Shown here: piece after piece, positions 3,134 through 63,711 of the stretch
How the letters are laid out: each line of letters begins with the position of its first letter
Numbering within the stretch: position 1 is the first letter of the stretch
From: Kalaharituber pfeilii
Lineage: Eukaryota; Ascomycota; Pezizomycetes; Pezizales; Pezizaceae
Length of the DNA: 64,000 nucleotides
Reading direction: 5' to 3'
Assembly: GCA_015179045.1 (NCBI GenBank)
Contig: WHUZ01000047.1
Location: 1 to 64,000 of the forward strand
Program-made: the position numbers and the translations under genes
The notes under the pieces: generated by a model
Told to the model about the DNA's origin: nothing
Databases searched by the model: none
The model's input: the letters and a program-made list of their open reading frames with translations, nothing else

Positions 3134-3195
3134 GCCCTGCCATGGCGAACAGCTACAAGCGGGGTCACGTGAAAAAAAAAAAAAAAAAAAAAAAA
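3134..3195 (+). mobile_element. Solo hairpin retroposon (family 3), 13-bp target duplication
   Basis: The insert starts GCCCTGCCATGG, ends GTCACGTG plus about 25 A, and is flanked by AGACAGCTGGAAA at 3121-3133 and 3196-3208. The CCCTGC arm can pair with the GCGGGG arm. Its start coincides with those of the units at 42686, 53425, 60350 and 63649. Confidence 0.85.
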
Positions 3196-3208
3196 AGACA
3201 GCTGGAAA

Positions 3209-4411
3209 AATGGCAATACTTAGTAGCGAGAGAGATCACCGGGGTCCCCTAGGGGACAAGAAGAGATGTGGTTGAAGGGTTGATAAAACTGGAATTGGTC
3301 AAGGCATTTGTCAGTGGAGAGGTCGAGACTCGAGAGGGTAGAGGCCAGGGTATTGAGATTCAGAGACGAACTGATCAAAGACCCATTACCAGACATGAGA
3401 TACTTGAGGGGCTCACTTGAGCACTGCGAGCCCCTGCTACTCCACATTCACCCGTATCACTCTAGAGACCTTCCCAGAGAAGACTGAGAAGCTATCATTG
3501 CCAAAGAAGAAAACAAAGAGTAGACAAGCATATACACCAATAGGAGCAGGTTAGAAGTCAGAACAGGTGCTGGAGTCTATCATGGCAGCACAACAATACC
3601 TCCATATACCTGGGAATATGCTGTATGGTGAATGGCATAGAGATGATAGCCGTGGGAGAAGCTCTGGGAAAGGACGGGGAGATATTGATAGTCACTGACT
3701 CCAGGGTTACCATAACGAGAATGCAGGGGATAGCTAGGGGGGATCCAACTCCGGAGGGTCCTGCAAGATTGGTAAGGAGACGGTGGGAGGAGAGGACAGT
3801 CTGGGGTGATTGAGATATAGCGATATTATGGGTGAAGGCACACAAAGGCATCAAATGCAACACCGAGGTAGACATGGCGGCCAAGATTGGCATAGCACTG
3901 CAATACCAAGACGAGGTAGTTACTGAGGCAGGCATGAGGCAATACGCAAAGGCATGGAGGGCCAATAAGAGAAAAAGGCTATAGCTGTCGTACCAGCCTT
4001 TGGAATATCTGGGGAATAGGAGGAGGATAGCCGCCCTTGCAGGCATGCTGGGGAATAAGAGTCTGCGGTAGTGGAAGCACTAGATAAGGAGGGATGAATC
4101 ACCGAAGTGTAGGTGGTCCAGCAAAGCTCTCGAGAACTTTGCTCACATAATGAATGAATGCGAGGCGTGGAAGAAAAGACTCCCGAGGGAGGAGATGGGG
4201 TTGAAGCACCCAACGAAGCCAGGCGGGGAAGGAGACATGCTGGCGGAGGTCTTGGACTGGGCGGCGGAGTAGTTTTCCTTTAACATCGGGTTACATTTCG
4301 TTTTGTCTTTTGCTATTCTCCCATATTCTCCCTTCTGCTCATCATGTACTTAATCTCTCGCCATAGCCTGTCAGGCGGCATGCGAGTAATGAAATAAAAA
4401 CATAAAAAAAA
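3209..4411 (+). pseudogene. LINE relic: decayed RNase H, C-terminal Cys/His region and 3' end (family 2)
   Basis: Frames interrupted by several stops still show an RNase H start at 3520-3600 in which the catalytic TDGS has become TNRS, then VTDSRVTITR near 3695 and WVKAHKGIKCNTEVD near 3830. A C-terminal H...C segment (HIMNEC near 4145) follows, with a natural stop at about 4270. The 3' UTR ends in a hairpin (CTCGC 4357-4361, GCGAG 4382-4386, inner GCCT-GTC-AGGC) and an interrupted A-rich tail. The last ~180 bp recur inverted at 16438-16682. Confidence 0.75.
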
Positions 4412-4545
4412 TACCCGCAAGTCGGGTGGCAACCCGACGTCGGATGACTAGTTTCCTAGCATGCGGGCTACTTTAGTTCCAGACCAAGAGACAGGTTGCA
4501 AGAAATATTCGGCTTGGCAACCGGTCTCTGTAGGCTGGGTACGAG
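4412..4545 (+). repeat. Flanking repeat R, inverted copy at 16305-16437
   Basis: About 130 bp next to the LINE end (CCCGACGTCGG, ACCAAGAGACAGGTTGCAAG and neighbours) is nearly identical, in reverse orientation, to 16305-16437. With the LINE tail the inverted repeat is over 300 bp and brackets NLR block A. 4546-4952 holds no recognised feature. Confidence 0.8.
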
Positions 4546-5356
4546 AACAAATCAACTGTATCTCACCGCATTTTAGCTCGTAATCTGTAGTTTACTTCAA
4601 GAACAACCAAACTTTACTAAGTCTTGGCATGCAGCAGCACAAAACCAAAGCACGAGCTGTGAGGTACGAACTGGATCACCGGAAAGCGACGCATGTATGA
4701 CAAGTCCTTGGAGTATTATTGTTATATAGTACAGAGAGGTGCGCTGAAGTTTACGACGTTACCGCCTCGAAAGAAACTACCCGAGCCGTTCACTTATGTT
4801 CTACTCAGAACTTTACTATAGACACTCGTGTAGTTCACAACTGGTGGTTTAGTCACCGGGGCAGACAACGAGTGCTTCTGACCTGTGGTGAGCAGCATAT
4901 GCAACACTTAGCAAGAGTTTAATACTACACAAGTCAAACAATTCAGACGTGGTCACCTTGACTTGCATATGATACTTAGAACAAAAATGAAAAGGAAAGC
5001 TTCCTAGTGAATTCGGACTTACGTAGTTTCGGTCCGGATATTCCGAATTTCGTAAAATTGAAATTTTGGGAAAAATCCGAACGAAATCGTAATGTCCACA
5101 CAAATCTATTCCCATTTCACATATGAACGTAAGTACTTTATTTGTAGTCTGGACTACGGTACTTTATCCGAATTTTATCCGTGGAGAACGCAACCAGAGA
5201 AAATGTGAGAACTCCGACTAGCCCCTCTGGCAGCTATCATACGCAGCGTAGGCGGGGCAGGTTGTTAGTCAGCGTCTGGTTACGAGACTAGCAGATTGTA
5301 TTTCACTGCGCGAACTTCTTGGCAGCACCCAGCGTACTGTGTGGGAACCGAGTGTA

Positions 5357-5961
5357 CTCGTTACCAGCATTTAGTGATGCAGGTGGGGGCGGTGTTGGCA
5401 GACCGTGCGACAGGTCTGTGTTCAGGTGTGGTGAGATGCAATATCGAGTCGTAGAACTGTACAATTCCAATTAAATTCTTTCTACCAAGTAGAAAGTACA
5501 TATGCGAATTGCTGTCATGGAAGATGGTGCTTTTGCTCATACAGCGAAGCAAACACAATGGTTTCGGAATTGGTACAATATGCAGTCTTTGACATGGGCA
5601 CCTTCATCTCCGGATCTCAATCCTATTGAGGCTATCTTAGGGATAATGAAGAAGAGACTGAACAAGCGATCTCCTAGACCTCGTGGAGAACAGCTTGTTG
5701 CTAGAATACTGGAAGAGTGGGATAATATCACTGGTGAAGAGATATTAGAGTTGATAGATTCTATGCCTCAACGAGTGCAAGCTGTAATCATAACAAATGG
5801 TAGACATACATAATACTAATGCAATGTTGATATTATTCTCATGTTTAGTGAGTCAAATGCATTCAAGTTATTCAATATTGCATCTTACACACCTGAATAC
5901 AGACCTCTCGCACGGTCTGCCAACACCGCCCCCACCTGCATCACTAAATGCTGGTAACGAG
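5357..5961 (+). mobile_element. Internally deleted Tc1/mariner element with long TIRs, copy A
   Basis: The inverted repeats begin CTCGTTACCAGCATTTAG and extend about 65 bp (5357-5421 and 5880-5961). Both ends are flanked by TA (5355-5356 and 5962-5963), the Tc1/mariner target. It is 605 bp long, too short for a full element, and holds only the C-terminal half of a transposase. It lies about 420 bp upstream of NLR gene A and is shared with copy B, so it predates the duplication. Confidence 0.85.
5502..5813 (+). pseudogene. Tc1-type DD34E transposase, C-terminal fragment
   Basis: The 103-residue frame contains the second catalytic Asp in MEDGAFAH and the catalytic Glu in SPDLNPIE, with 34 residues between them, the DD34E spacing of Tc1 transposases. 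The N-terminal DNA-binding domain and first Asp are missing, so it cannot be an active transposase. The frame is still open in both duplicated copies. Confidence 0.85.
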
Positions 5962-6382
5962 TACTAGTAGTGCCAACTATAGCTACATATATCACATGAC
6001 TTTATCTTACAAGCTGATTTGAACTCTATCTCGAAACTCCAGAACTGGCGACCAGATATTCTACTACGTGCAGCGCCATAGGAGGCCTTGCTACTGAAAT
6101 CCCTAGGTCTAAGTACCCCTAAAAAATCAGAACAATCGGGGGCGCCAAGTCCAAGAATTCGTCTCATCCTGCGTACCCCGCTTTGTTGTGTAGAGCCGCA
6201 ACTCCCCTCGAGTCCCCTTATTCGCTCATAGTCTGAACCGCTTTATACATCTACGAACCTGCATTCATTCCGAAATCCACACTTGCCTCCGGCGCCGAGT
6301 CTCTAACGAAATTGACATATTTTATCAGTATATCTTCACAATACATTTTCCGAATTTGATCGCATATTCTTAGCATCGGGAA
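5962..6382 (+). promoter_or_regulatory. 5' flank of NLR gene A
   Basis: This 420-bp stretch between the Tc1 remnant and the NLR start codon is duplicated at 25385-25808. No clear TATA box or operator stands out. The start codon context is GGGAAATGG. The Tc1 remnant and, in copy B, the MULE lie directly next to this flank and may affect expression; that is inference. Confidence 0.4.
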
Positions 6383-9300
6383 ATGGATCCCTTTTCCATT
6401 TCGACTGGAGTTGCTGGCTTCCTCTCCTTAGCACTTGAGCTTGGGAAGATCCTAAGCAATTATACGAGCCAGGTCAATTCTGCTCCGAAGGATGCTCAGG
6501 ACTTACTCACTGAGATTACTGCACTGAGTCACACTCTCGAACAGCTGATTGCCTTTCTGAGAAAGGAAGATGTCAAAGGGAATTTTCACCAAACTTCTGC
6601 TCTTTATATCGTAATTGATATTTGTAAGAGCAAGATTGAAAGGCTTCACCCAAAAATAGTCAAGTTTCAAGTGTCAGGAGGATTTAGTGACCGCGTGAAA
6701 TGGCCATTCAAGAGAGAAGAGTGTGTAGAGATAGTCCAAACATTGCATCGCTGCACTCAAACAATTGAATTTTCATTGACTATTGCGAACTGGTATTTCT
6801 AATGCCCTTGACATTTGCATTTCCAAATACTAAGCGATCATAGTGAACTTCTATCGAAGACATCCGGAGAGGTCATGACTAGCTTATCACAGCAAAAGCA
6901 GCAAATAGACTCCGTTATGTCGTTGTTTCCTGTTATCCCAGATCAAATGTCAAAGATGAGCACAACCCTTGGTGAGGTCTTGGGTTTCGTCTCAACGCTC
7001 GATCAACTAGCTATCGATATACAGCAAATCAAGCTTAGTGTACAGAACTTGCAGCTGAATATGGACGGTGCGTGTACTTGCTACTATTTTCCTTTGATTT
7101 TCGGTGTGGGTTATATACTTACTGCCTTTTCAGTGGAGAACACCGAAAAACTCCTAGCATGGTTGTCACCACTTGAGCCACAGAAACGACATCAAGATGT
7201 CAAATCTAGCCGACTCAAAGATACGGGGACATGGATTCTTCAGACAGACCAATTTAAGTCTTGGCTGTCAAGCAGTATTGAAAGGCCAAGTGAACGCATT
7301 CTAGGTTGTTATGGAATGCCCGGGGCTGGGAAAACAGTCATTGCGTATATACCCCCAGCTGCTGTTTTGAATTTATTGCTGCCCATATGGCATTACAGCT
7401 TCACTAACGGCTCTTGAAGGTCTGTTGTCATTGATCATCTATCTCTCGAAGTCGAGCAACCAAGAGCAGCTATCGTCTACATCTACTGTGACTATCGGAA
7501 CCAGAAAGGCCAAGTTCCTCTACACCTTGCTGGAAGCCTCGTAAAGCAATTGGTACTGAGACTCTCCTCATCTTCTCAACCATTACCTGAGATGATCACC
7601 AAGAAGTTCGCATCTACTAGGACGTCAAGTGCAAGGCTACAACTTGATGATGCCAGAGCTATGCTGAAGGATCTTTTACAAAAGCTTGACATCACCTTTA
7701 TCTGCATTGACGCAATGGATGAGTTGGAAGACCAAACACGAATAGAGTTCCTCACATTGATCAAGGATATGTTGCACATGGAGCGTTCCAGTTCTGAAAC
7801 CCAATCTAACAGCATGGTACGGTTATTGTTCACTGGGCGGCCAAATGTTAAGGACCAAGTGTGTCAAGTTCTGGGGAGACAATTGAGGTCGTTAGAGATT
7901 GTGGCTAAGGATAACGACATCCGGAGATACCTTATGCATAAGATTGACAGCGATCCGTCACCTGACACTATGAATAGCAAGCTCAAGGATGAAGTATTAC
8001 AGGTGTTATTGGAAAAGTCTCAAGGAATGTAAGTTTTAAACGTGCCATATAAATCAAGTCGATATTAATCCTTTTTATCAGGTTTCTACTCCCTACGTTA
8101 CACATAAACATGATTCTGCACAAAACAACGATTAGGAAGCGACGAGATGCACTACACAATCTACCAACTGGTCTCTATGCCGCCTATGAGACAACTATAT
8201 CCAGAATTCAACAATCAGCCCGTAGAGCAGAGCTAGGTATGAAAGTGCTCATGTGGATATGCCTGGCCGAGAGACCATTAGAAGTGATAGAACTCCGCCA
8301 TGCATTAGCCGTGGAGGACGAAGATACAGCCCTTGATGAGGAAAACATTCCTTCAGAAAAGACGCTCCTTGACTGCTGCTATGGATTAGTCATTATTGAT
8401 GACGAGAGCTCCTCTGTGCGTCTAGTGCACTATACACTCCAAGAATATTTTAAGTCACACAGCGAAAATCACTTTCCAACTGGCCATATTTCCCTCGCGA
8501 GGACGTGTCTAACGTACCTGAATTTCAGTCCTTTAGCTTGTCCTTGTAAGTCAAGGAATGAACTCGATCAACTTAAAGCGGACTTCCCGTTGCTGAACTA
8601 TGCTTCTTGTCAGTGGGGCCACCACGCGCGAAAGCAGTGTGATGGGTCTGTAGTGGCACTGGCTACCAAGCTGCTTCAGCTACATCATCCTGCAGGAGTT
8701 CAGGAATTGAGCCGAGTTCTCAACTGGAACCGTCGCTACCATCCCAGTATCTACGGTGACAGGTGGGATAGTACCTTTTGCGGAATACATGCCGTAGCGT
8801 ACTTTGGAGTTGAGGGTATTCTGCAAGTGTTACCACAAGCTTCAAACCCAAATTTAACCGCCCAACGCAGAGATGGTGTCAGTCCGTTAGTTTATGCGAT
8901 CTGGTACTTCCGCAACGAGGCTGTAGTGCGCTTGCTCCTGGAGCGAGCTGATATTGAAGCCGACACAAAGGATAAAGAGGGCAGGACTCCGCTTTCATAT
9001 GCTGCTGAGAAAGGCCATGAGGCTGTAGTGCGCTTGCTTCTTGAACGAGCCGATGTCAAAGCCAATGCAAAGGATAGAGAGGGCAGGACTCCGCTTTCAT
9101 ATGCTGCTAGGGAAGGCCATGAGGCTGTAGTGCGCTTGCTTCTTGAACGAGCCGATGTCAAAGCCAATTTATGCAATAAAATGGGCAGGACTCCGCTGTC
9201 ATATGCTGCTGAGAGGAGAGGTAATGAGGTTGTAGTGCGCTTGCTTCTTGAACGAGCCGATGTCGAAGCCAATGCAAAGGATCAAGATGACAGGACTCCG

Positions 9301-10875
9301 CTTTTATATGCTGCTGCGGGAGGTCATGAGGCTGTAGTGCGCTTGCTTCTTGAACGAGCCGATGTCAAAGCCAATTTACGCGATAAAATTGGCAGGACTC
9401 CGCTGTCATATGCTGCTGAGAGGAGAGGTAATGAGGCTGTAGTGTGCTTGCTTCTTGAACGAGCCGATGTGGAAGCCAATTCACAGGATGCCAAGAGGAG
9501 GAATCCGCTTTCATATGCTGCTGAGACAGGCCATGAGGCTGGAGTGCGCTTGCTTCTTGAACGAGCCGATGTCAAAGCCAATTTACGCGATAAAATGGGC
9601 AGGACTCCGCTGTCATATGCTGCTGAGAGGAGAGGTAATGAGGCTGTAGTGTGCTTGCTTCTTGAACGAGCCGATGTGGAAGCCAATTCACAGGATGCCA
9701 ATAGGAGGTCTCCGCTTTCATATGCTGCTGAGAGAGGCCATGAGGCTGTAGTGCGCTTGCTGCTTGAACGAGCCGATGTCGAAGCCAATGCAAAGGATCA
9801 AGATGACAGGACTCCGCTTTCATATGCTGCTGCGGGAGGTCATGAGGCTGTAGTGCGCTTGCTTCTTGAACGAGCCGATGTCAAAGCCAATTCAAGCGAT
9901 AAAATGGGCAGGTCTCCGCTTTCATATGCTGCTGGGAGTGGCCAAGAGGCTGTAGTGCGTTTGCTGCTTACACGAGCCGATATTAATGTGAATGCAAGGG
10001 ATTACACTGCATCGATGATGGGATACGGTCGGTGGAGTGTATCGAGATCCACTTCAAAGTCTCCAAACAGCAGAGTTCCACTTTCATACGCTGCTGAGAA
10101 AGGCCATGAGGCTGTAGTGCGCTTGCTGCTTGAACGAGCCGATGTCGAAGCCAATTCACAGGATGCCAATAGGAGGACTCCGCTTTCATATGCTGCTGAG
10201 AGAGGCCATGAGGCTGTAGTGCGCTTGCTGCTTGAACGAGACGATGTCAAAGCCAATTCAAGCGATAAAATGGGCAGGACTCCGCTGTCATATGCTGCTG
10301 AGAGGAGAGGTAATGAGGCTGTAGTGTGCTTGCTTCTTGAACGAGCCGATGTGGAAGCCAATTCACAGGATGCCAATAGGAGGACTCCACTTTCATATGC
10401 TGCTGAGAGAGGCCATGAGGCTGTAGTGCGCTTGCTGCTTGAACGAGCCGATGTCGAAACCGATTTACGCGATAAAATGGGCAGGTCTCTGCTTTCATAT
10501 GCTGCTGAGAGCGGCAATGAGGCTGTAGTGCGCTTGCTTCTTGAACGAGCAGATGTCGAAGCCGACGCAAAGGATCAAGAGGGCAGGACTCCGCTTTCAT
10601 ATGCTGCTTGGAGAGGCCATGAGGCTGTAGTGCGCTTGCTTCTTGAACGAGCCGATGTCGAAGCCGACGCAAGGGATCAAGAGGGCAGGACTCCACTTTC
10701 ATATGCTGCTGAGAGCGGCTATGAGGCTGTTATAGCCTTGCTTATTGTGCGAGCCGAAGTGGATGTAAATTCCAGGGACTGCAATGGCAAGAGTCCACTT
10801 TTACATGTTGTTGAAGAGCCTTCCCATGGTGAGACTACAGTGAGTTACTCCTTGAGCGAACAGATATTGACGTAA
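6383..10875 (+). CDS. NLR-like STAND protein A: fungal N-terminal domain, NACHT, ankyrin repeats
   Basis: This is a predicted intracellular sensor of the fungal NLR type. Such proteins act in non-self recognition or heterokaryon incompatibility in other fungi; the ligand here is unknown. My model has exons 6383-6792, 6835-7067, 7134-7344, 7420-8028 and 8082-10875. The introns are 42, 66, 75 and 53 nt, all GT-AG, and the total is 1418 codons with frame kept at every joint. Residues 1-210 start MDPFSISTGVAGFLSLALEL, typical of the Helo-like N-terminal domain of fungal STAND proteins. Walker A GMPGAGKT is at about 275-282 and Walker B ICIDAMDE at about 379-386. A winged-helix-like region ends in RLVHYTLQEYF. 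Residues 750-1410 are about 18 ankyrin repeats. An irregular repeat with a ~20-residue insert lies near 10000-10080. A shared one-base loss near 10848 ends the frame early. Confidence 0.9.
8872..10830 (+). repeat. Ankyrin repeat array A (about 18 near-identical 99-102-bp units)
   Basis: Each unit encodes a version of GRTPLSYAA, three or four variable residues, EAVVRLLLERADVEA, then a variable stretch. The fixed parts are identical even at silent positions, which points to recent unequal exchange or gene conversion. Differences concentrate at the residues after YAA and at the six or so residues after ADVEA, positions that face ligands in ankyrin folds. Units with ERRGNE are one codon longer. 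Confidence 0.9.
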
Positions 10876-11108
10876 ATGCAGAGCCCACAAAATTTCTCCG
10901 TGCTAGTTATTTTCGGCCGGACGGACAGGGCCCTGAACATGTGATACGCAAGCTCCTTGAACGAGCTGACATCGACGTACACGCAAAAGATAACTTTGGC
11001 AACACTCCGCTTTCGCTCGCCAATAGGATACGGAATAATAAGACTATCGGGCGCCTACTTGCTGAGCGAGCAGCATTGAATGCAGAGGTAAAGTCATGCG
11101 GTGAATAG
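10876..11108 (+). pseudogene. Out-of-frame ankyrin tail of NLR gene A
   Basis: Past the stop, another frame continues with ankyrin-type sequence (LLERADIDVHAKDNFGNTPL near 10950) and ends ...SCGE-stop at 11106-11108. A single missing base near 10848 (AGTTACTCC where an extra T would keep LLLER in frame) explains the shift. The same lesion and the same open tail are in copy B. Confidence 0.75.
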
Positions 11109-13286
11109 CAGCGAAAGTCGCTGCCATACAGTACGTAGCAGGAGAAGGACACGGCGGGTGCCATAGTGCGCCACTTGCTCAATAGTATTCAGGTATGCAA
11201 ACCAAAGTCTACATATATAGGATAGTGCGGGAAACATCTCCTTAGGAATCCTATTCCTATCAAAGCGCGTTTGCGGAATGCGGGGGTCAATGTCTTGTTT
11301 TGCACGCGATGACTGATAAAAAAAAAAAAAAAAAAAAAAAAGGCTTGTTTAGTTATTTGTCTGCTTTTCCTATACCTGTTCTTTTATTAATGCGATGTGC
11401 TATTCAATCTTGATTGCCAATGATCGCTATTTCTGCATTCTTGTGTTTCTAGTAATACTTCGAAGTGAATTTTCTTGAGTACAGTAGAAGCGAGCGGCAT
11501 TTCAAGACGTACAGTATGCAAAGGCCAGCCACTTGTTCAACGTCGTCCCAGAGAGGGCGCGCGATTTCACTCGCTAGGTCTAAGATGGCCGGGTAGCGGC
11601 GCGTGACTTCGCCCTGGCTTTTTTCACCGTAAGAGTGGACTCTTTGAGAAGCCCCTCGTTCATTCTTCCCGGAGCCCTCCTTAAATACCTCTCCTTGCAT
11701 GACCCTTTCCAAGCTACTGTACCTCCACCCGCCGCCTCACAGTACACCGCTACCGAAGTGATTGCCAGCGACGGCGCCTACCACTCCAACACGTCACCAT
11801 GAGCACGTAGCTTAGTCCAGGCTGCGGCGAGTCCCCAGTGTATGTCCGGACAGCAGCTCGATGGGACGGGTACAGTACTGTCGCAAACGCGTCTGGGTGC
11901 GGTGGGGGGTCTTGGCATTTCCCGTGCCATGGTGAGGGAAGGCCGGAGGGGGAGGTAACTACTAGAACGGGAAGGGGGTACCGGGAAGGGAAGGGTATTT
12001 AATGAGGGGAGAAGAGGGGAGGCCTCAGAGGAAGAGCATCATCGTTACAAGGTTGAAGGAAGTGAGATCCATAGACCTCGATCAATTCCAGCTGCTTGCT
12101 CCTTCTTCCCTCTAGTCCACTTTCCTCCTCTACAGTACCAGAGCCCACCGTGACACAGCACTCGTCCCGCGAGAAGCAGCGGAACGAGCATCCACCAGGT
12201 ACCGTGTGGCGGCCACACGAAGCCCCCTTCCCAACTAGCCGCGCAGCGTACGCCTGCAAGTGCCAGCTAGCATGAGACCAGCACCCTCGCTCTTAGTCTA
12301 GTAGTCATGACCCCCGACCGAAGGGAGGGCTCCCTCTGCGTGGCCATGAGGGCCACACGGAGCCGCAACGTCCCCAGGACCATCCACACGGGCTCTCGTG
12401 CGACACCTCTCCTCTGCCATCCTGTCCAATTCCAGACCGCCGCTTTCACGCACAGTACAAACAGTTAAGTATATTTGCCAGCTTGAGGGGTTCGCGCCCT
12501 CAGCGCGCTCAAAATCACTGCTCAGGCGCTGTCCAGCATCGACGCCCCCGCCATAAATCACCCCTCCGCGTCTGCCACCATGCGCGCCAGCCAGCGGCAC
12601 CAGGGCCAAGAACAGGGCATCGCCGCACATAGTAGGCAACATTGGTTGTATTACCGAGCACCTTCTTCCCCGGAGAGTGTGGCAATGGTCGGTATCATGG
12701 TACCTACGTCCATCGCATACTTTTGCTGACCTAATTCCGCCAACAAGGAAAAGGTTTCAGAAATATCCTTTTATCTGCTAACGTGAAGTCAAATCACTCA
12801 ATTTCCCAGGATTCAGCAAGCTCGTACGTACGGTAATTTGATGCTATGAATGCCGAACATGGAGTTATAGACACTGGGTCTTGGATGGTTACAATCCCTC
12901 TTAGCCTATTCGCAGAATTCCAAAACAGTTCCCTAATTCTTGTGTCATAGGAGGTGTCGGAATGTTTATACACATGCGGCGTCTCTGCAGCGCGCACTTA
13001 AGGGTAAACGTTGACCAGTGGTTCAGTGGATTGCATGCAAGGAATTTCCGATTCGGATCCCCCATTGTAGCGAATTGAAGCTCGCGAGATTCGGATGTTG
13101 TAGAAGTGAGATTTGGAATTTGAAAGTAACAAGGTAGAACGAGCGCAAACTGCTATATAGTGTTTGCTGTAAGAATATGATGGTGTGTATTTACCCCTGA
13201 GGCACTGAAGCGGGTAGGTTGGTACGTGAGTACGTTGTCACTTGTGGGACATGGATACTGACAACCAATGAACACACGCCATCAAC
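11109..13286. other. 3' flank of NLR gene A, duplicated, no supported gene
   Basis: This is matched in copy B over 31606-35178. It holds an A-run at 11319-11341 shared by both copies. On the minus strand at 12298-12642 there is a frame starting MLPTMCGDALFLALVPLAGA with a signal-peptide-like beginning; the copy B version (34158-34535) shifts frame because of a 2-bp difference, which argues against a gene. I see no other coding signal. Confidence 0.5.
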
Positions 13287-19080: not shown

Positions 19081-20097
19081 CTACTGAGGGTGATGCAGTC
19101 GCCGTGCGAGTTGGAAAACGTGCTCCGGATGGACCTCGATATACCGCTGGTATGCCTCTGATTTCCATCTTCCTAGCAGCTGAATCTCTTCCTTCGATAG
19201 CCCTGCCCTCTGCGCTGAGGTTGCAGCCCCTCTACGGAAGGAGTGGCCTGAGTACTGGCCACCTATGCCTAGCTGACCCAGTATACGGCGGAGTGTATTC
19301 ACCACATGATCCCGTGTAAATGGAAGCCCGTTTTGACGAGAAAAGAGTGGGGCTTCTGGTGCTGCTGGTGCCAGCTGATACAGCCGTTGGAGGGAGGTTA
19401 CCGGGCATGCCGCATCTCCAGCTGCTGCAACTGTGAGGGTTATTCCGCGCCGGAAGGGGTCAGTCTTACTTGCCGGCAGAGTCACGTATACCCGTGACTC
19501 CGCGAATTGGATGGACCTGCGGGTGAGGTGCCATTGTGGGGCGTCCTGCTCCCAGGTTGACCAGGTGAATTCTCCAACCCGTAAGAACCCTGCGAAGGCT
19601 AAGCAAAAGGCGGCATGTAATGCTATATCGTCCAGTGATCGGCCGAACTGGTCCACTATCCGGAGGAGGAGGTCCCTCGTAATGGGTAGTCTCTCTCGAC
19701 GTGCCGGGGTTTCCCCATGAAAACGTTTGATACCCCTTAATATCCTTTGGAGCCTCAGGTCCTGGAAGGCTTCGACTGAGTGGCCTAGGTCCACATGCAG
19801 GGACCGCAGTCCAGTGAGGTATAGCTTCATAGTCTCTGTTTTGACTTTTCCTGCTAGAGAGGCGACCCACTCACAGAGCATCACTGCAGTTGCGGGGAAG
19901 GGGTTGGCACCGGAGAGGGCGCAAAAGAGTGCATATTCCCGTCTCGCGGTATGGTATGTTCGTCTGGTGGTTGCTGAGAGTCCCCACCAGAGGTATCTGG
20001 CTGCTCGTCGCGGGAGGTCTGGAACGTCGTTGTACCATGACTCTGGTGGGTCATATGTGACTTGGGCGTCTGTAACCTGGACAGCTGTGGTGCAAGG
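19081..20097 (-). CDS. Tyrosine recombinase of the DIRS-like element
   Basis: This enzyme should integrate the circular cDNA. From the in-frame GTG at 19884 it is 267 residues, with catalytic Arg at about 102 (FLRVGEF), Lys at about 140 (ASKTD), H-x-x-R at 214-217 (SGHSFRRGAA), Trp 240 and the nucleophile Tyr at about 248 (QRYIEV), all present. The same frame stays open upstream to 20097 and encodes typical N-terminal core-binding sequence (REYALFCALSGANPFP). The true protein therefore probably starts earlier, overlapping the RT frame by about 215 bp. No ATG is seen in that extension, so frameshifting from the RT or a non-AUG start is likely. Confidence 0.85.
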   Translation of the reverse strand, partial: PCTTAVQVTDAQVTYDPPESWYNDVPDLPRRAARYLWWGLSATTRRTYHTARREYALFCALSGANPFPATAVMLCEWVASLAGKVKTETMKLYLTGLRSLHVDLGHSVEAFQDLRLQRILRGIKRFHGETPARRERLPITRDLLLRIVDQFGRSLDDIALHAAFCLAFAGFLRVGEFTWSTWEQDAPQWHLTRRSIQFAESRVYVTLPASKTDPFRRGITLTVAAAGDAACPVTSLQRLYQLAPAAPEAPLFSRQNGLPFTRDHVVNTLRRILGQLGIGGQYSGHSFRRGAATSAQRAGLSKEEIQLLGRWKSEAYQRYIEVHPEHVFQLARRLHHPQ

Positions 20098-21656
20098 TTA
20101 GCTACTTTCTTGAACTCGAACCGGGATAAAGCATCTGCTAGTGTGTTTTCCCCTGTGGGTATCCAATGAACAATCAACTCAATATCCTCCTTTGCACTCA
20201 GAAGAGTGATTTTCCGGAGGGGGTCCATTGCGGCCCCTTTCATTGTTCGCCTAGCGAGGCCATTTACCACTGCGGTGTTGTCATTGTGGATGTGCACGCG
20301 AGCACCATGCCATATTTTTCCCCAACGCCGGAGGGAGTGGAGGACTGCGGCCATCTCCTTGAAGTTTATGTGCTTGTCCCGATGCCTGCGAGGCACTCTC
20401 GTGGAAAAGGCGTTTTCCAGTGGAATAGTCGTGAGGTCATACATTGAGTCTCCCTCTTTTGGTAGGTAATACCCCCCAATTCCTTTACGTCCTGAGGCGT
20501 CAGTCCAAAGAGCGAATTCTCGCCGATTGGCGTGAATAATTGACACTCCGTCCCAGGATGGGAGGAAATTTAGCCACCAGTGCAGATCTGCTCGCATGTC
20601 GGCGGTGATATGGCACCTTCGATTAGGTGCGGAGTAAGATGAAAGCGCATTATATAGGCGTCTCAGGAAGGTACGGCCCATAGGTACCACTTTTGCCGCG
20701 AACGATAGGAAACCCGTTAACGATTGAAGTTCGAGTAGGGTTAGTGACCGGCGTTTGAGGTAGAGCCTCAGGAGTAGGAGTGCCTTTGCGTGCTTATCTG
20801 ATGGCAGGCGTGCTTGCATGGCATTCGTGTCTATTAGAATTCCTAGGAATTCGGCTACTGTCGACCGTAGGCTTTTGGACTCCTTGATTTCGAATCCGAG
20901 ATCCCGGCAGATTTGTGCGAAATCTTGCTCATACTGACTTGCATCCGCATGTGGATCTAGCACCTTTAAGAAGTCGTCTAGGTATTGGAGTATGTCCTCC
21001 CAGCCTTTCTCGTTTTCCAGGATCCATCGTAGCCCTTTTGCGAATAGATCAAAAATGAAGGGCGAGGTCCGGAGGCCGAATGGTAGGTACTTGTCATACC
21101 ACCAGCTTCCTTCCCAGGAGAAGCCTAGTAGCCACCAGTCCTCGGGGGACACTGGGATGTGGCGGAATGCATTGGCTAAATCTCGTTTTACCAGAATGGC
21201 ACCCTTCCCTTTTTTTGCCACTGCCGCAAGTGCTTCGTCAAACTTGACATATACGAGGGTGCCCCACGAGGGTGGTATGTGGTCGTTGACTGAGTTGCCA
21301 TGTGGGTGTGATAGGTGGTGTATCCTCCGCCAGCCTCCATCAGCTTTTGGGACAAGGCCTAGGGGGGAGGAGATAAAATTCTCTGGTAGTACTGCGACCT
21401 GACCAACCCGTCCATGGGAAATCTGCTCTTGGAGGTCTTTCGTAAGGACCTGTGGGGCGTCGTTTGCGGATGGGAGGTTTTTGCTTAAGATCTGCTGGGC
21501 TGGCCCGGTGTAGCCTATCTTGGCCCCATATTGGATTATTCTTATGAGTGTATTAACATAATAGCGGTCTGGGTGGTTCTTTAGCCAGCGGGCCCAACCT
21601 TCGGCCTGAAGCGGGCCTGGGTCAATTTCTGCGGGATGGTCACTGCGGGACGTCAC
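19881..21656 (-). CDS. Reverse transcriptase-RNase H polyprotein of the DIRS-like element
   Basis: The product (591 aa) copies the element RNA into cDNA. RT motifs run from GLVPKADGGWRRIHHLSHP (about 100-118), through VKRDLANAFRHIPV and LPFGLRTSPF, to the active site YLDD at 225-228. RNase H follows, with Asp in LWTDASG (about 386), Glu in FKEMAA (about 434), Asp in IHNDNTAV (about 459) and a late Asp in LADALSRF (about 508). This RT lineage and the adjoining recombinase are diagnostic of DIRS elements. The C-terminal 80 residues are low-complexity and overlap the recombinase frame. It lies 84 bp after the gag-like ORF. Confidence 0.9.
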   Translation of the reverse strand: MTSRSDHPAEIDPGPLQAEGWARWLKNHPDRYYVNTLIRIIQYGAKIGYTGPAQQILSKNLPSANDAPQVLTKDLQEQISHGRVGQVAVLPENFISSPLGLVPKADGGWRRIHHLSHPHGNSVNDHIPPSWGTLVYVKFDEALAAVAKKGKGAILVKRDLANAFRHIPVSPEDWWLLGFSWEGSWWYDKYLPFGLRTSPFIFDLFAKGLRWILENEKGWEDILQYLDDFLKVLDPHADASQYEQDFAQICRDLGFEIKESKSLRSTVAEFLGILIDTNAMQARLPSDKHAKALLLLRLYLKRRSLTLLELQSLTGFLSFAAKVVPMGRTFLRRLYNALSSYSAPNRRCHITADMRADLHWWLNFLPSWDGVSIIHANRREFALWTDASGRKGIGGYYLPKEGDSMYDLTTIPLENAFSTRVPRRHRDKHINFKEMAAVLHSLRRWGKIWHGARVHIHNDNTAVVNGLARRTMKGAAMDPLRKITLLSAKEDIELIVHWIPTGENTLADALSRFEFKKVANLAPQLSRLQTPKSHMTHQSHGTTTFQTSRDEQPDTSGGDSQQPPDEHTIPRDGNMHSFAPSPVPTPSPQLQ

Positions 21657-21740
21657 GTGATATGGAAAATATACGGAGGATTCAGAGCTAGGATAATCAT
21701 TTGATTTAATTACTACCCCTAGTGATCCTCCCTCTAATTG

Positions 21741-22829
21741 CTACCTCGAGGCTTGGATGCGATCCGCAAATGATGTTGCATTTGCCCCCGTAGCCGGTGC
21801 ATTGGCACCTTGTTGGCAATTTGGGTGGGGTTTGGCGCACGAAATACAGATGTGTGCGTATCGGCAGTTTGGGCTTCTGCATGTGCCCTGATTGAAGCGG
21901 AAGCATGGGGTGGGGCTTGGGCCCTGTGACGGTGCTGCTGGTGCTCCCCATGATTTCTGGCGTTTTGCGTCGCTTGCCGGTAGGTGCTCTGTCGACATTC
22001 GTGGTAGGCGTCTCATTAACAGATGTTGCAGTGTGGGATCCTGTTCCCGCCAGCCTTGAGGGTCATAGACGTCGAGGAGGATCCTTTTTTGATGAAACGC
22101 CACGTGGAAAACCCGGATGCTTTCCCATGTGTGCAGATGGTAGAGGTCGTATAAGCGGTGCCTATAGAAGGCTAGAGCTGCGCTCAGGCGGAGCTTGACG
22201 CCCTGCGGGGCGAATTGGACCAGGGCCTGGCAATATACCTCGAAAGGCTGCATGAGCGTGTGAATTGAGCGGTATTCCTCGATCTCCACATCGCGGGTGG
22301 TTGTTGGGATTTCGTATGGTCCCAATGTCAAGGTTTCTTGTTTCCGCTTCCTTGCCGCGGTAAGGGGGTAGAAGGAGGCATTGATCTTTAAGAGGTTCTC
22401 CGCCTTGAAACGGCCCTCCAGTATCTCCCGCCAGATAGCCGGGTCTACCGCTGGGTATTCTGTGTGAAGGGGGAGGGTGCGGGGGTCATTACCCTCATTC
22501 TGTGATACCTCCGAGGCTGGTATTATTGGTCCTGCTGGGGTTGCCCGTTGCTGTGCAGCCAGGAGGCCCTGTAGCACCCGTTGTACGATTCTATCCTCGT
22601 CTATAGCCGCGGAGGGTGCTGCGGAGGGTGCTGTGGCGGGTGCTGCGTTCTGGTTTGCTGGTGGGGTTTCTGGGACTTGTTCGTCGAACAAACCCATTTG
22701 CCCAGCAGATGGCCCAGCGTGCATGGTGGATGTCGATATAGCGTTTGGTGTTTGTGAGCGAGAGGTTTGTGAGCGAGTTCTGTAGTTGCGACTGGTCATA
22801 AGGCACCGGGGCATATGTGTAGGAAACAA
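21741..22829 (-). CDS. Gag-like protein of the DIRS-like element
   Basis: This 362-residue protein lies first in the element, upstream of the RT on the same strand. The N-terminal 110 residues are low-complexity (Ala/Thr/Gln/Pro). The middle is a globular region (TEYPAVDPAIWREILEGRF and onwards). The C-terminus has two Cys/His clusters, CFRFNQGTCRSPNCRYAH and CISCAKPHPNC, the first being a CCCH finger. Position and zinc fingers fit a nucleocapsid-like Gag. The start at 22829 is the first Met of the frame. Confidence 0.8.
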   Translation of the reverse strand: MFPTHMPRCLMTSRNYRTRSQTSRSQTPNAISTSTMHAGPSAGQMGLFDEQVPETPPANQNAAPATAPSAAPSAAIDEDRIVQRVLQGLLAAQQRATPAGPIIPASEVSQNEGNDPRTLPLHTEYPAVDPAIWREILEGRFKAENLLKINASFYPLTAARKRKQETLTLGPYEIPTTTRDVEIEEYRSIHTLMQPFEVYCQALVQFAPQGVKLRLSAALAFYRHRLYDLYHLHTWESIRVFHVAFHQKRILLDVYDPQGWREQDPTLQHLLMRRLPRMSTEHLPASDAKRQKSWGAPAAPSQGPSPTPCFRFNQGTCRSPNCRYAHICISCAKPHPNCQQGANAPATGANATSFADRIQASR

Positions 22830-23431
22830 AGGTATGGGGGGTGATTTCGCAACTCACGCGGCTTGGAGAGGGAAGACCAGCGTCTCCCTCTCCCCTTCTA
22901 TATACTGAGCATCCCTTCGCTGCCTGCCCATGACTACCACAAAGGGATCACCCAAACGGGAAACCAACTAGAGAGGGACTGTGCTGTGGCTTGGTGGCGC
23001 CCACTAGTGGCTTGCCCTCTCTTCCGTGGTCTCGAGGGTTCTGGTGGCTGCTCTCGAGCCTCCCATTAGCTTGCGGTTGAACCGCCAAATTTTATTTGTC
23101 GTCTGGACTACGGTACTTTATCCGAATTTTATCCGTGGAGAACGCAACCAGAGAAAATATGAGAACTCCGACTAGCCCCTCTGGCAGCAGCGTAGGCGGG
23201 GCAGGTTGTTAGTCAGCGTCTGGTTACGAGACTAGCAGATTTATATTTCACTGCGCGAACTTCTTGGCAGCATCCAGCGTACTATGTGGGAACCGAGTGT
23301 ACGCATTTAGTGATGCAGGTGGGGGCGGTGTTGGCAGACCGTGCGACAGGTCTGTGTTCAGGTGTGGTGAGATGCAATATCGAGTCGTAGAACTGTACAA
23401 TTCCAATTAAATCCTTTCTACCAAGTAGAAA

Positions 23432-23755
23432 GTGCATATGCGAATTGCTGTCATGGAAGATGGTGCTTTTGCTCATACAGCGAAGCAAACACAATGGTTT
23501 CGGAATTGGTACAATATGCAGTCTTTGACATGGGCACCTTCATCTCCAGATCTCAATCCTATTGAGGCTATCTTAGGGATAATGAAGAAGAGACTGAACA
23601 AGCGATCTCCTAGACCTCGTGGAGAACAGCTTGTTGCTAGAATACTGGAAGAGTGGGATAATATCACTGGTGAAGAGATATTAGAGTTGATAGATTCTAT
23701 GCCTCAACGAGTGCAACCTGTAATCATAGCAAATGGTGGACATACACAATACTAA
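23432..23755 (+). pseudogene. Tc1-type transposase C-terminal fragment, copy B
   Basis: This is the same DD34E fragment as at 5502-5813, with Asp in MEDGAFAH, Glu in LNPIE, and only a few substitutions near the C-terminus. The N-terminal half is absent. Confidence 0.85.
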
Positions 23756-23859
23756 TGCAATGTAGATATTATTCTCATATTCAGAGAGTCAAATGCATTC
23801 AAGTTGTTCAATATTGCATCTTACACACCTGAATACAGACCTCTCGCACGGTCTGCCAA

Positions 23860-31825: not shown

Positions 31826-31857
<32 letters not shown>

Positions 31858-41620: not shown

Positions 41621-41690
41621 TTTTTTTTTATTTTTTTTTTCTTGGGTCATGTAACCCTGCATACAGGCTACTGGCCTATGGCAGGGAATC
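41621..41690 (-). mobile_element. Solo hairpin retroposon (family 1), 9-bp target duplication
   Basis: On the minus strand it begins GATTCCCTGCCATAGG and ends in poly(A) (T-run on the plus strand). ATTGTAATT is at 41612-41620 and 41691-41699. The outer arms are CCCTGC and GCAGGG, a fully Watson-Crick version of the CCCTGC/GCGGGG pair in the LINE at 2273-2304. It lies immediately beside the Harbinger end. Confidence 0.85.
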
Positions 41691-41741: not shown

Positions 41742-42595
41742 CAGTACACTCTCGATATAAGAATATCATCAGGCAACAGGCAAATATCGAATGTTTTCTT
41801 ATATTAAGTATAGTGAAGATTCAGCCATAAACTATACATGAAGCTAGCTATATCGACCACCAAATGTCTACAATCAATCATCGCCATAGCCCACGGGGCG
41901 GCACGCGATTAATGATATCAAAAAAAAAAAAAAAAAAAATATCTACATAAACTCGCACATGCCATACTAAATTCTACTCAATCACTAGTTCTCTTTTGCT
42001 TTGTTATACAGGCAATCAGTATCTGTTTTTCAACTGGGAGTGTAGGTATACATACAAGAAAGAAAGTTTTTGATTCTTGTCACCTTGGTACATTGCCTCA
42101 CTGGTTTGAGAGCTTCATGTCTTATCCAAATACTTTTGCTCATACCATCCTTTAATTGCCTGCCAACCACAGTTCCGATTTTGTGCTGCATATTCTTGTA
42201 TATCTTGATGCTTAGCTTGGGTCCAATTTTGATGTTTAGGAGCTCCAGCAGGAGGCATGATGAGTGTATAAATTGAATTAGGTGGTTCACTCAGGTAAAT
42301 TCCATACTCAAAGAATTCTACAGCTGATTATAATGATGAATTACATATAGATCAAGTGTATGTATATATGATATATGGAAATGATGCTGAGAAGTGGGGT
42401 ATCTCTTATCGATAAGCACCCTAATTTGTATTAATGCACATTCAATATAAGAATATATACATGACTATGCAAGAAAAAATTAAGAATACAGTATTCTTAT
42501 AACTAAAAAATCCTTAATTTGTATGGGGGCGGCCAGTCATATTCTTATAATGAACATATTCTTATATCACGTATTCTTATATCGCGAGTATACTG
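41742..42595. mobile_element. pogo-like element with ATATAAGAATA repeats, TA target
   Basis: The ends CAGTACACTCTCGATATAAG and, as complement, CAGTATACTCGCGATATAAG are flanked by TA at 41740-41741 and 42596-42597. Many TTCTTATA motifs lie near both ends. A minus-strand scrap at about 42258-42100 (QDIQEYAAQNRNCGWQAIKG) resembles the start of a CENP-B-type helix-turn-helix of pogo transposases. It is interrupted by the LINE tail at 41873-41936. Confidence 0.75.
41873..41936 (+). mobile_element. Solo LINE tail (family 2), 11-bp target duplication
   Basis: The insert contains ATCGCCATAGCCCACGGGGC, then GCGATTAATGATATC and poly(A). The flanks are AAATGTCTACA (41862-41872) and AAATATCTACA (41937-41947), with one mismatch. 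Confidence 0.75.
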
Positions 42596-53424: not shown

Positions 53425-53485
53425 GCCCTACCATGGCGAGTAGCTGTAAGCGGGGTTATGTGTTTTTTTTTTTAGAATAAAAAAA
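53425..53485 (+). mobile_element. Solo hairpin retroposon (family 3), imperfect target duplication
   Basis: The insert begins GCCCTACCATGG and contains GTAAGCGGGGTTATGTG, a T-run, then an A-rich tail. Flanks GAAAAACTCATG and GGAAAATTCATG (53486-53497) are a decayed duplication. The A in CCCTAC opens one pair of the outer stem. Confidence 0.75.
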
Positions 53486-54840: not shown

Positions 54841-55232
54841 TTGCTACACAGCGGATGTATTAGCACAGTTATACACACATATGCAGGGTGCTGGCAAGGC
54901 GAGTCGTTAGCAGACGGACCGAATTGCAGGTGGTGCGGGGAGGAGGAGGAGACCAGTGATCACGTTCTGAACAAATGCGATGGCCGGGGGGAGAGAAGCA
55001 CTGCTCACACCCCCGGAAGGGGGCGAAGCGGAAGAAGACCCACTGACGGCGCTGATGGACTGGATGGAACGATAAGAGACCTATTTTATTATTTCTATTT
55101 CGGAGAGCGCGGGGATGGTTCAGTTCTCTTTCCCAAGAATGAATTTATTTCTTCTTAATGTGCCTAATCTCACCATAGCGCACAGGGCGGCACGCGAGTA
55201 ATGATATTTTTTTTAAAAAAAAAAAAAAAAAA
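54841..55232 (+). mobile_element. 5'-truncated LINE 3' end (family 2)
   Basis: The coding tail has the C-terminal zinc-knuckle pattern CRWCGEEEETSDHVLNKC. The 3' UTR ends CTCACCATAGCGCACAGGGC, GCGAGTAATGATA, then a T-run and A-run to 55232. The 5' break is uncertain (perhaps near 54815), and no target duplication was found. Confidence 0.75.
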
Positions 55233-59720: not shown

Positions 59721-60600
59721 ATATAGAGCAGTGATAGCCATATTTACAGATGGTTGTCGTAGTGAGGAAACAGGAATTGAAGGCAGATGGTACTGGAGAC
59801 AGGTAGTAGCAGGTGAGTTAGAAGGGTCCCAGTTGGTAGGTATGAAAGCTACTATATAGGATGGCAAGGTCACAGGCATGAGGAGTACCCTTAAAGCTAT
59901 AGAGATAGGAAGTGAAGGTGTTGCTGCTTGCAGACTCTCCGGCAGCCATTAGTGCAGTCAAGAGAGTAGGAAAATCCGGTAAGTAGAAGACTGCAGATCT
60001 AGCATGCATGATAGAGCTTATAGTAGAAAGGTGGCAGAGGCTGAGGGAGGCTGGGACTGTGAAGGTTGTATAGGTCAACGTCCATATGAGAATAAAACAC
60101 AATGAGAAGGAAAATGAGAAGGCCAAAGAGAGTGCCAGGTAGCTAAGGTATGATGGGCAGGTCATTAAGGGTGGACTACACCAGGAGTTAGTTCAAAAGA
60201 GAAGAGAGAAGAGAGAGTAAGCCAGGTTTGGGAACAGTAGGTTTGTGACAAATTACACCTGCGTGCGAACTGGAAAATTGAGGGGGAAAATTAGTGGAGA
60301 GGAGGTGCAATACACCTGTGGAGAGGCTTAGAATGCTGAGCATATAGTGTGCCCTGCCATGGCGAACAGCTACAAGCGGAGTCACGTGAAATAAAAAAAA
60401 AAAAAAAAAAAAGAGCATCTAGTGTTCAGGTATGCTGAGCTGGAGTGCAAATAACCTGGCAGTGCTGGGAGTGCAAATCACCTAGCAGTGCTGGAAGGAC
60501 TTAGAAGAGAAAGGATGGAGGCAGGAGGAATAGTTCGCCCGCCTCGAACTGGGCTAGCCGAAGGTCGATACAAAATGGTGTGAGTAGGATAGATAGGTAG
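59721..60600 (+). pseudogene. Decayed LINE (family 1 type): RNase H and C-terminal region
   Basis: AIFTDGCRSEETGIEGRWYW (about 59735) starts an RNase H homologous to the one at 1385-1790. WDGEVSGM has become DGKVTGM after a stop, and many stops follow. The C-terminal part (GEAxNAEH) is cut by the solo retroposon at 60350. An end resembling the family 1 coding end is near 60560. There is no poly(A) of its own. Confidence 0.75.
60350..60412 (+). mobile_element. Solo hairpin retroposon (family 3), 13-bp target duplication
   Basis: It begins GCCCTGCCATGGCGAACAGC and ends AGTCACGTGAAAT plus A-run. GAGCATATAGTGT (60337-60349) and GAGCATCTAGTGT (60413-60425) flank it. The uninterrupted target, GAGCATGTGGTGTTCAGG, is visible in the related LINE at about 2017-2035, confirming the borders. 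Confidence 0.9.
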
Positions 60601-63381
60601 TTACTTCAACCTGACTCGGATGAGTAATGGGCAGCGAGCAGCGAGCAGTAAGTAGTGAGTGATGAGACTGCTAGTGATAGTAAAGACGATTGTGATAAAA
60701 GAAGACTAGTAGTGATAGTTAAAGCTATGGAATCTATTAGTAATAGAAATTTACGACGTAAAACATGTTTTTTCCCAAGAAATTAAGAGTTGAAATCAAG
60801 AAATAATATCACTATACGATATCAGGAAAGAATTGTCCACTCACTTTTTGGAACCGAATCGGATGAACTCCAGGCTTCACTTTTATTACCGAGAAAGGGA
60901 AAGTGGCATGAAGGAAGAATTATATACTTATTTATATAAGTACGATGGCTGTTCAACAATCACGCATCGACGTCAAAGATTACATACTTATGTTGGAAAC
61001 TCCTATTCAAAATGTACCGGGCCGCTAGCTATAGGAGGAATGAGTTGCCATATTGGGGTTTGGGCTTGATGGCAGCTGTCTAGTTTAGCGAGTCACTGGG
61101 CTGTGCAAAGAATAAAGACCCTCCCTGCGCTCGGCGTTGCCTAATGCCAGTAGCCGTGGTAATGGAAGCTCTTGAATATCGCAAGGCGAAGTCCAATCAA
61201 GGCTACTAATTAATGAACGTAGACATACTAAGTGACAGCACCTGCGGATCCGACGTCACAAATCCACAATGCCACACTCCCTAACAAAATGTCCGGACAA
61301 ATCCAAAAGCAAAGAATTGCTTAGACACCAGAGAAAAATTGTAGAAAAAATATAATATCTTAAGCTTTATACTACTTATTATTATATACCTAAGTAGTGA
61401 CTCTATTAAATAAATCGTTAACATAGACGTAAAGAGGTAAGAAGGGAAATAGATAATTTATAGAAGTTTCAAATTTAAGTGACATCACAGTAAAAGAGTA
61501 ATATGAAATATTCTCCCGTCATGATTTATTTTCTTACCCTTTAATATTATTTCGACTAGTAGTAGTGGGATGTACTCGAGTACAATTTTTGTGTATCTCT
61601 AGTCCCATTATCAAGGCAACCAGAGACGGTTGTCATGACGAGTACTTGTCTGAAGCGCATACAATGTGACAGGGATAGTTGCTAGGATAGAGTCCACCTG
61701 TTCGTTATGAATACGGTCCTTGTTACTCTACAGGCATTTCCTACATGCTTGGCATAGCTACACGCTTTAATGTTTGTTTTCAACCAACTGCATTTCCCAG
61801 TCACAGCCCGCTAAAGCCTCGTACAGTGGCGAAATGAAAATCCGAGCTCGGTACGCAAAGATTTTGGTCATGGAACCCACAATCAAGAAACTACTTGAGT
61901 TGTGCATTATTACTTTACGTGATGAATGCACAAATGAGGTAGAAGAGCTTCAAAAGAGTGGGATAAAATGATAAAAGAAAGCTCCTGTCATTAGTCAGAA
62001 GTGTGCTGGATCAGCTTCGCTATTATGGTAGTCAAATGGGAATTATGCAACACCTTTCAACTTGTATGCAGTTAAAAAATACATGTGTCGTATTTTTGTG
62101 TGTCAATCCCATACAAAAGTTCTGAAGACTTTTCGACAAAAAAGTCATACCTTATTCACTTTTGACCCCCCTGTCGAGTGGCGTACATTAATACATGCAT
62201 AGCGCTTCTAAGTATTTCCCCTACCCCACATCCCAACGCTCGTTTTACACCAAAACTAACCACTCGCGACAACAAATATCTCAACAGCCAGAATAGAATT
62301 TTGTATGCAAGTTGTAGACTGGTTAAATTAAGGACTATTCTTCATATTACACACCTTACCTTCTTCAGATATGCTGCGTTGAAGGGATTTATCATTCATG
62401 AAATTCGCACCATAAATTGGCATAGGCTTGGCATATATTTTTCACTGTGATATCACTAGTATTGAATTCCACTTACTACACCTGAATTATTTTTGATAAA
62501 AATAGTAGGACACTTGAATATCAATATTTTATCTCATTCAAAGTTGTGAGAAGAACCAAAATTCATATTCTCATAGAAATTGTATGCAATAACTGTATAA
62601 AAAAACTACTGGAAATGGCAATTTGATGTATAAAATAGGCATTAAACAACATCAAGTCAGTCAAAGCACTAATTATCAAGAGGTCTGTTGGGGAGACTCT
62701 CTAGCCACAATTCTATAGCCATTATAGTAAGCATTGACAGGAAGTAGTGCATCCTACCCTCCAGTTGGACTTTGTATGGGGATTCCATATAAATGCATGC
62801 CAAGATTTCAATGAAAAATTCATGGTGCCATTAATCGACCACAATGTCTTTTCAGTGCAAATGGAGGTATTAACAGTGAAGAATAACCCTTTATTTATTT
62901 TCCCTGAAAAGGGTGTACAAAATTCTGTTCTGGTGGTTGAGATATATATATGTTGTCGTGCACAGTCAGTTTTGGTGTACAACGTGCATCGGGACATGGT
63001 GCACATCGGGTTGTGGTGAAAGACAGTACCTGAGACAAGCTCTGACCTCAAGGAATTTATTATGGAATCCGCAGTCTAGGCTACTAGTATGCAAGCAATC
63101 CCGGGCAATTAAGGACCGACAGGTTGACCATGAAGCAACTTTATGCTAGAACGCTTCTGCGCAGCGAAACTAAGGTCATACCTACGACTACACCGCACGT
63201 TATACTCTAGGTATTGCGACTAGGTACCAAGGTCAGATTAAAAGTTTGCACTCGCTTTTGCAAAATTCATCACATCGGAAGTTTAAGAAAAACCTGCACG
63301 CAATTGCTTACTAACTTCAGCTTTTTCAGTATGTACTAGCTGCAGGGAGGCTCTACACACAATAAGAGACCAACCAAAATA
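60601..63381. other. AT-rich gene-free stretch
   Basis: Short frames (60833-61069, 61774-61971, 62178-62450, 62722-63051) have no recognised domain and no splice pattern linking them. No element ends were found. Confidence 0.35.
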
Positions 63382-63574
63382 ATCGTTACCAGCATTTAGC
63401 GATGCAGGTGGGGGCCAAGTTATAGGTCAGTGGTCTGTTCATAAGCAGGTGAGGCTAAGGCCTGATTTTGGGTATGGAAAATACCCGTCAGTAGCAATTT
63501 CCATCCCCGATCCAGTAGACTTTTCTCGCACGGCCATAACAGCCCCACCTGCATCACAAGATACCAGTAACGAG
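63382..63574. mobile_element. 193-bp Tc1-type MITE
   Basis: The left end ATCGTTACCAGCATTTAGCG and the right end, as complement CTCGTTACTGGTATCTTG, are diverged versions of the TIR of the Tc1 remnant at 5357. TA flanks it at 63380-63381 and 63575-63576. It has no coding content. Confidence 0.75.
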
Positions 63575-63648
63575 TACTATCACCTGGCGGGACACGGTGT
63601 TCTGGGACGAGAAAAGGTTTTTTATACCCTGAAATTAACACGAACATT

Positions 63649-63711
63649 TGCCCTGCCATGGCGAACAGCTACAAGCGGGGTCACGTGAAATTAAAAAAAA
63701 AAAAAAAAAAA
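63649..63711 (+). mobile_element. Solo hairpin retroposon (family 3), 12-bp target duplication
   Basis: It begins TGCCCTGCCATGGCGAACAG, contains GCGGGGTCACGTGAAATT and an A-run, and is flanked by AACACGAACATT at 63637-63648 and 63712-63723. The core is almost identical to the units at 3134 and 60350. Confidence 0.92.

Follow-up and report, generated by a model that had tools for sequence, protein, structure and literature searches.

Short copies built on the 3′ end of a long interspersed nuclear element (LINE) have been described in several forms. Ordinary 5′-truncated LINE copies carry the LINE 3′ end, a poly(A) tail and target-site duplications (TSDs), and are described as 100–1,000 bp long with various 5′ ends (PMC3747384). 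In stringent pairs of a LINE and a short interspersed nuclear element (SINE), such as UnaL2/UnaSINE1, ZfL2 and the plant and algal L1 pairs, a conserved 3′ terminal hairpin is common to parent and short element, and the SINE adds a separate head, often tRNA-derived (PMC5135761, PMC3747384). Tailless retropseudogenes from truncated tRNAs are likewise retroposed fragments of small structured RNAs, drawn from tRNA or SINE RNA and lacking poly(A) (PMC3747384). In the Magnaporthe MINE chimeras (MGL/WEIRD), the reverse transcriptase (RT) of a fungal LINE makes position-specific breaks near hairpins, followed by a template jump at GCC*A/U (PMC2104539). Here we describe a LINE-derived retroposon of the truffle Kalaharituber pfeilii, seen first in 64,000 nucleotides of its assembly GCA_015179045.1 (contig WHUZ01000047.1, positions 1 to 64,000; the window). 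Long copies of its families end at scattered positions, as ordinary truncated LINEs do, whereas the short class has one sharp end. Unlike the SINEs of stringent pairs it consists of hairpin and tail only, unlike the retropseudogenes it has poly(A), and unlike the MINE chimeras its copies simply end at the hairpin foot. In the literature searched, which took in little from subscription journals, we found no report of a hairpin-only retroposon with a fixed 5′ end. The genome paper covering Kalaharituber treats transposable elements generally, and its main text does not appear to use the word SINE (PMC7550596).

The genome comprises 78,031,657 bases, and the window is its contig C303. Six short insertions in the window (Table 1) had been listed in an initial annotation made from the letters alone, and all six are present as it gave them. 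They share one layout—CCCT(G/A)CCAT(A/G)G, an inner loop, GCGGGG or a variant of it, about eight more bases and an A tail. Five have clear TSDs, as claimed, of 9–15 bp; that of the copy at 53425 is imperfect and gapped. Two of the six have a T-run ahead of the A tail, and a T-run in this place is seen at 42686–42753, 53425–53485 and 55168–55228 in the window and at C1:91931, C1:211660, C1:423374 and C2:27293. We distinguish three hairpin families: F1 and F3, to which the six are assigned, and F2 (CNTCGCCATAGCC...GGGCGG...GCGA), which is also found in the window.

Folding agrees with the placement of the start at the base of a hairpin whose other arm is of the GCGGGG type. With positions numbered relative to the hairpin base, the -1 base (A or G) is the first to be paired; in the unit folded alone it meets the U after GCGGGG as the bottom pair of the stem, and this pairing is possible in 33 of 34 distinct F1 rows. 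The F1 stem is kept nearly invariant. Compensatory changes are found in F2, where two stem pairs vary among 39 distinct rows (C-G 25/A-T 11 and C-G 31/T-A 7), giving the conserved 3′ stem-loop with compensatory changes that marks LINE 3′ tails of the stringent type. A candidate CAU-(A/G)UG pairing 3′ of the outer stem is too invariant in sequence to show covariation.

The search suggested by the annotation, for the motif genome-wide with TSD scoring, extends the short class and its fixed 5′ end through the genome. CCCTGCCATRG occurs 2,382 + 2,293 times, against 12 + 12 for the reversed pattern, so that its abundance is not a matter of chance. The hairpin 3′ motif was found 4,368 times, 2,948 of them with an intact CCCTGCCATRG; among the latter, 921 have the F1 LINE flank CAGGGR and 200 the F3 flank ATGGRT. 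The 1,827 copies with neither (62%) are an upper estimate, because "short" in these counts means without the tested flank patterns and altered flanks score as absent. To these pattern counts we added a sample of 281,625 distinct bases in 38 blocks. It holds 25 flankless copies: 21 with a TSD at the hairpin base (one weak), two tandem dimers, one LINE-flanked copy with a substitution (C1:397640) and one cut off. Taking the 1,827 copies by flank pattern and the 21 of 25 that were checked true, we put the short class at some 1,500–1,800 copies.

Sampled copies were collected by the hairpin 3′ half and an A run, and so without selection on the 5′ end; the first 20 sample tiles had been picked for containing CCCTGCCATRG (a mild bias), and 20 stretches of C2 by the 3′ motif only. 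The 120 copies divide into 59 of F1 (three of them fragments behind another copy), 11 of F3 and 50 of F2. Across the three families, 42 of 120 have a TSD scoring at least 9, the threshold, within -8 to +26 of the hairpin base, against a false-hit rate of 0.5% in 1,781 swapped-flank trials; for far TSDs there were 2 control matches in 231 trials. TSDs are 7–15 nt long (median 12). No end could be placed in 59 of the 120 copies, which are evidence neither way.

In F1 the 5′ end falls sharply on the hairpin's first paired base. TSDs place 38 of its 59 copies, with 29 ends at -5 to +5, of which 16 lie at -1 and 7 at -2. Further out are two ends at -36/-38 and five at -154 to -887, including a doubtful one at -234 (C1:267651). 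The two at +23 are tandem dimers in a duplicated segment; the tandem partial hairpins at C1:178198–178292 and C1:213797–213889, in a duplicated segment, look like template jumps. A similar but weaker end class exists in F3, with two of 11 copies placed (-2 and -4), and in F2, with 21 of 50 placed (12 at -101 to -1139, five at -1 to +2 and four at +15 to +25); a further F2 copy, C1:307861, looks like a base start by eye only. The C2 stretches gave 20 F1/F3 rows: seven with a TSD at the hairpin base, one start at -36, ten otherwise LINE-flanked and two unclear.

Upstream of the F1 hairpin lies a small hairpin (GGGCTTGCCC and variants) and beyond it a 7-bp one, AAGCCTG...CGGGCTT. Between -6 and -100 just two F1 ends are placed; they belong to independent insertions and fall exactly at AAGCCTG, the 5′ foot of this 7-bp hairpin. 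All 18 sampled LINE-flanked F1 copies outside the dimers extend at least to this position. Genome-wide, CAGGGR copies number 1,191 (3′ motif not required) and 961 of them also have CTCCGGG 20–32 nt 5′ of CCCTGCC; as the remaining 230 include sequence variants, at most 19% can end between. GTT before AAGCCTG is absent in 32 of 240 copies. An even spread of ends along the LINE 3′ untranslated region (UTR), which the annotation had set against a fixed start, is thus seen neither in TSD-placed ends nor in genome counts. Like ordinary 5′-truncated LINEs, the short copies have a 3′ end identical to that of the LINE, but their 5′ ends are not spread along the element.

LINEs that encode an RNase H domain have the 38-mer as their 3′ terminal hairpin. 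A long F1 copy on C1 encodes the end of this domain (28 bits, cut-off 25.8), and the RNase H segment of the window LINE is up to 95% identical to K. pfeilii proteins. F1 and F3 are of LINE parentage, and the entire short unit, -1 base included, matches LINE 3′ ends. We tallied by hand, from flank patterns, the 100 intact copies that come first in contig order; the ratio of short to LINE-flanked copies is 34:5 in class G, 10:9 in B, 7:15 in C, 5:6 in D and 1:8 in F3. In this tally two "short" rows are really LINE-flanked with an altered CAGGGR: C1:397640 (class B) and C2:330335 (class D, with the AAGCCTG motif 36 nt upstream). Each of the five classes holds at least one TSD-placed short copy. 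The -1 base follows class as it does in LINE-flanked copies (A in class C and G in class G; in class B, LINE copies with A and with G both exist). Since short copies occur in all five subclasses, no single SINE master explains them; they originate from LINE RNA.

These tallies bear on whether genomic short copies might themselves be sources, with read-through transcripts trimmed to the hairpin and retroposed and class G spreading largely without a LINE body. Class G is mostly short (34 of 39 in the tally; 327 of the 368 exact 38-mers in the genome lack CAGGGG and 41 have it), against 7 of 22 in class C. We nonetheless consider such promoterless SINEs quite unlikely: a single active LINE with efficient processing gives the same skew, short copies arise in all five classes, and the search for short-only diagnostic variants yielded none, CCTTGG, the one variant tested and present in two short copies, also being found in 44 LINE-flanked copies.

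That the unit is a conventional SINE carrying an internal Pol III promoter is very improbable. The units are short and numerous, have TSDs and carry a LINE 3′ end, as many SINEs do, but they have no head distinct from the LINE. ARAGORN finds no tRNA in the window. In a scan for A-box and B-box motifs, the B-box has five mismatches in all three units tested, worse than shuffled sequence, and the A-box has four (class G), two (class C) and two (F2), against a shuffled mean near three; an internal promoter or an RNA-gene head was rejected on these results. What stands of the "SINE-like" label is a length far below that of an ordinary SINE, the TSDs, the A-rich 3′ tail and presumed mobilization in trans by a LINE. 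The notion of a unit of its own is only partly supported, the element being the LINE 3′ terminal hairpin, with no 5′ part of non-LINE origin.

We favour, at a probability of about 0.55, the reading that the units are retroposed copies of a processed 3′ fragment of LINE RNA, some 40 nt long, reverse-transcribed by the LINE RT. In the copied RNA, the terminal hairpin (R-CCCUGC ... GCGGGG-U) would be followed by some eight nucleotides and then the poly(A) tail. LINE transcripts would be shortened from the 5′ side down to the 5′ foot of the hairpin, either by 5′-to-3′ decay that halts there, perhaps through a LINE protein holding the hairpin, or by cleavage at the foot. The remnant would keep all that target-primed reverse transcription needs: poly(A) for priming and the 3′ hairpin for recognition. 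That the LINE RT recognizes the hairpin is suggested by comparison with LINEs of the stringent type (PMC5135761, PMC4176376). The enzyme would copy the remnant to its true 5′ end, sometimes add a few untemplated bases and insert the copy.

Several features favour an RNA that was already short when copied. The starts sit exactly at the 5′ foot. The added base of F1 copies at -2 differs from the LINE's G in five of seven cases, and the last TSD base of those at -1 equals the LINE's next base in five of 16 (both hand tallies); untemplated extra bases without a clear excess of microhomology at F1 base junctions argue in the same direction. On reaching the end of an RNA, R2 RT is described as adding up to five untemplated bases, and L1 ORF2p as doing so too (PMC4117753, PMC10830420). 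A second foot, AAGCCTG, also marks ends, and these starts lie where a structure is met from the 5′ side, opposite to the side an RT meets first. Finally, F2 and F3 share base ends despite different upstream sequences.

The start could also be set by the RT. Beginning at the poly(A) of full LINE RNA, the enzyme would copy the bound hairpin and drop off at its 5′ foot, making this a hot spot of truncation. We regard this as possible but doubtful. It requires no new RNA and corresponds to the usual account of 5′ truncation, and a fungal LINE is reported to have RT-switching hot spots next to hairpins (PMC2104539); it accounts for three F2 copies that start inside the hairpin, and short copies make up a larger share of F1, which has GC-rich stems immediately upstream, than of F2. 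However, if the RT stopped at the small upstream hairpin, ends should lie near -5 and include AGGG. No such ends are clearly seen: most placed F1 ends lie at -1/-2, and clear retention of AGGG is found in none (C1:415182 is ambiguous, its target ending in AGGG). No pause is expected at the 5′ foot once the hairpin has been copied, all 18 LINE-flanked copies mentioned above reach at least the AAGCCTG hairpin, and microhomology, at five of 16, is without clear excess. The switching consensus given for M. grisea (PMC2104539) is missing at the F1 junction, which has GGG before it and R CCCTGCC after it. Of the three causes offered by the annotation for the fixed start—an RT stop, a promoter or a processing site—processing fits best. 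A hepatitis delta virus-like self-cleaving ribozyme at the 5′ end was also considered and rejected, with no Rfam match in the window at gathering thresholds and none at E up to 10 around 3100–3250.

Other observations weigh against a processed fragment. When 60 nt of upstream sequence is added, another structure takes the place of the terminal hairpin at minimum energy in five of 16 long copies (F1 2/5, F3 1/4, F2 2/7). Classes differ strongly in their proportion of short copies (chi-square 28.7, p 9e-6), a skew not predicted by processing alone. Ends at the second hairpin foot number only two, and long-copy starts are hairpin-anchored in 7 of 19 cases, these two included, against a background of 165 of 906, which is weak. 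Further points concern F2: base ends make up only five of its 21 placed ends, others fall inside the hairpin at +15, +19 and +22 (the fourth, +25, is probably spurious), and its upstream RNA is clearly less paired than that of F1 only at -20 to -11, not at -10 to -2. Moreover, the frame tested before an F2 end (window 26229–27426, + strand) is proline-rich with no Pfam match, and F2 is only putatively a LINE; its parent may be an element that lacks RT. The F2 end at C1:390721 also follows a frame of this kind.

The other hairpin elements of the window are included in Table 1. The F2 insertion at 798–834 is nested in frame inside the LINE open frame 677–2188 (EIKKKKKK; window 785–850). Window 19081–22853 (- strand) holds open reading frames (ORFs) with RT by Pfam, which we take to be a DIRS-like element with a recombinase; an ORF of equal length and start recurs at C1:40499. 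Window 5367–13126 and 23303–35015 form a long direct duplication, 95–99% identical in the listed pieces, with two proteins that have many repeats, presumably ankyrin-like, in 102-nt arrays. An ORF with a DDE_Tnp_4 transposase domain lies at 40708–41463 (- strand).

Table 1 Hairpin elements in the window, with their structure and target-site duplications
Feature	Position	Strand	Structure	TSD and junction
F3 LINE, 3′ part	677..2336	+	Open frame 677–2188 with RNase H, 3′ UTR, terminal hairpin from 2273, poly(A)	
F2 copy starting inside its hairpin	798..834	+		GGCTTATACAGGC
Short F1 copy, class G	3134..3195	+	Hairpin 3134–3165, 3′ end, poly(A)	GACAGCTGGAAA; start at -1 (G)
Short F3-type copy	41621..41690	-		AATTACAAT (9 nt); four extra nt, GATT, before CCCTGCCATAGG (CCCTGCC)
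Possible short F2 copy	41873..41939	+		Weak, AAAT(G/A)TCTACA; six extra nt, ATCAAT
Short F1 copy, class D, CTTGGCGC loop	42686..42753	+	T-run before A tail	TGTATGAAAATAGTA, its final A coinciding with the -1 base
Short F1-like copy (CCCTACCATGG)	53425..53485	+	T-run tail	Imperfect, needing a gap; judged by eye
Short F1 copy, class G stem with one change	60350..60412	+		GAGCAT(A/C)TAGTGT, 12/13, including T at 60350; G(-1) is 60351
Short F1 copy, class G	63649..63711	+		(A)ACACGAACATT; one untemplated T at 63649, then G(-1)

The hairpin-only copies are a variant of the LINE-derived retroposon, and the finding is real. Besides SINEs, LINE ends scatter structured, A-tailed inserts of about 60 nt across this fungal genome, and a sharp end in some 1,500–1,800 copies offers a direct way to test whether 5′ truncation is set by RNA ends or by RT pauses. 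If the processed-fragment reading is true, a LINE lends part of its copying apparatus to a decay product, about 40 nt long, of its own RNA, which would show how little sequence LINE machinery needs and tie RNA decay to the birth of short retroposons. A rather unlikely extension is that the 38-nt hairpin and A-tract form a promoterless minimal retroposon, carried by any transcript, freed by 5′-to-3′ decay stopping at the foot and recopied by the LINE; were this so, it would be close to the smallest unit able to spread by retroposition in a genome.

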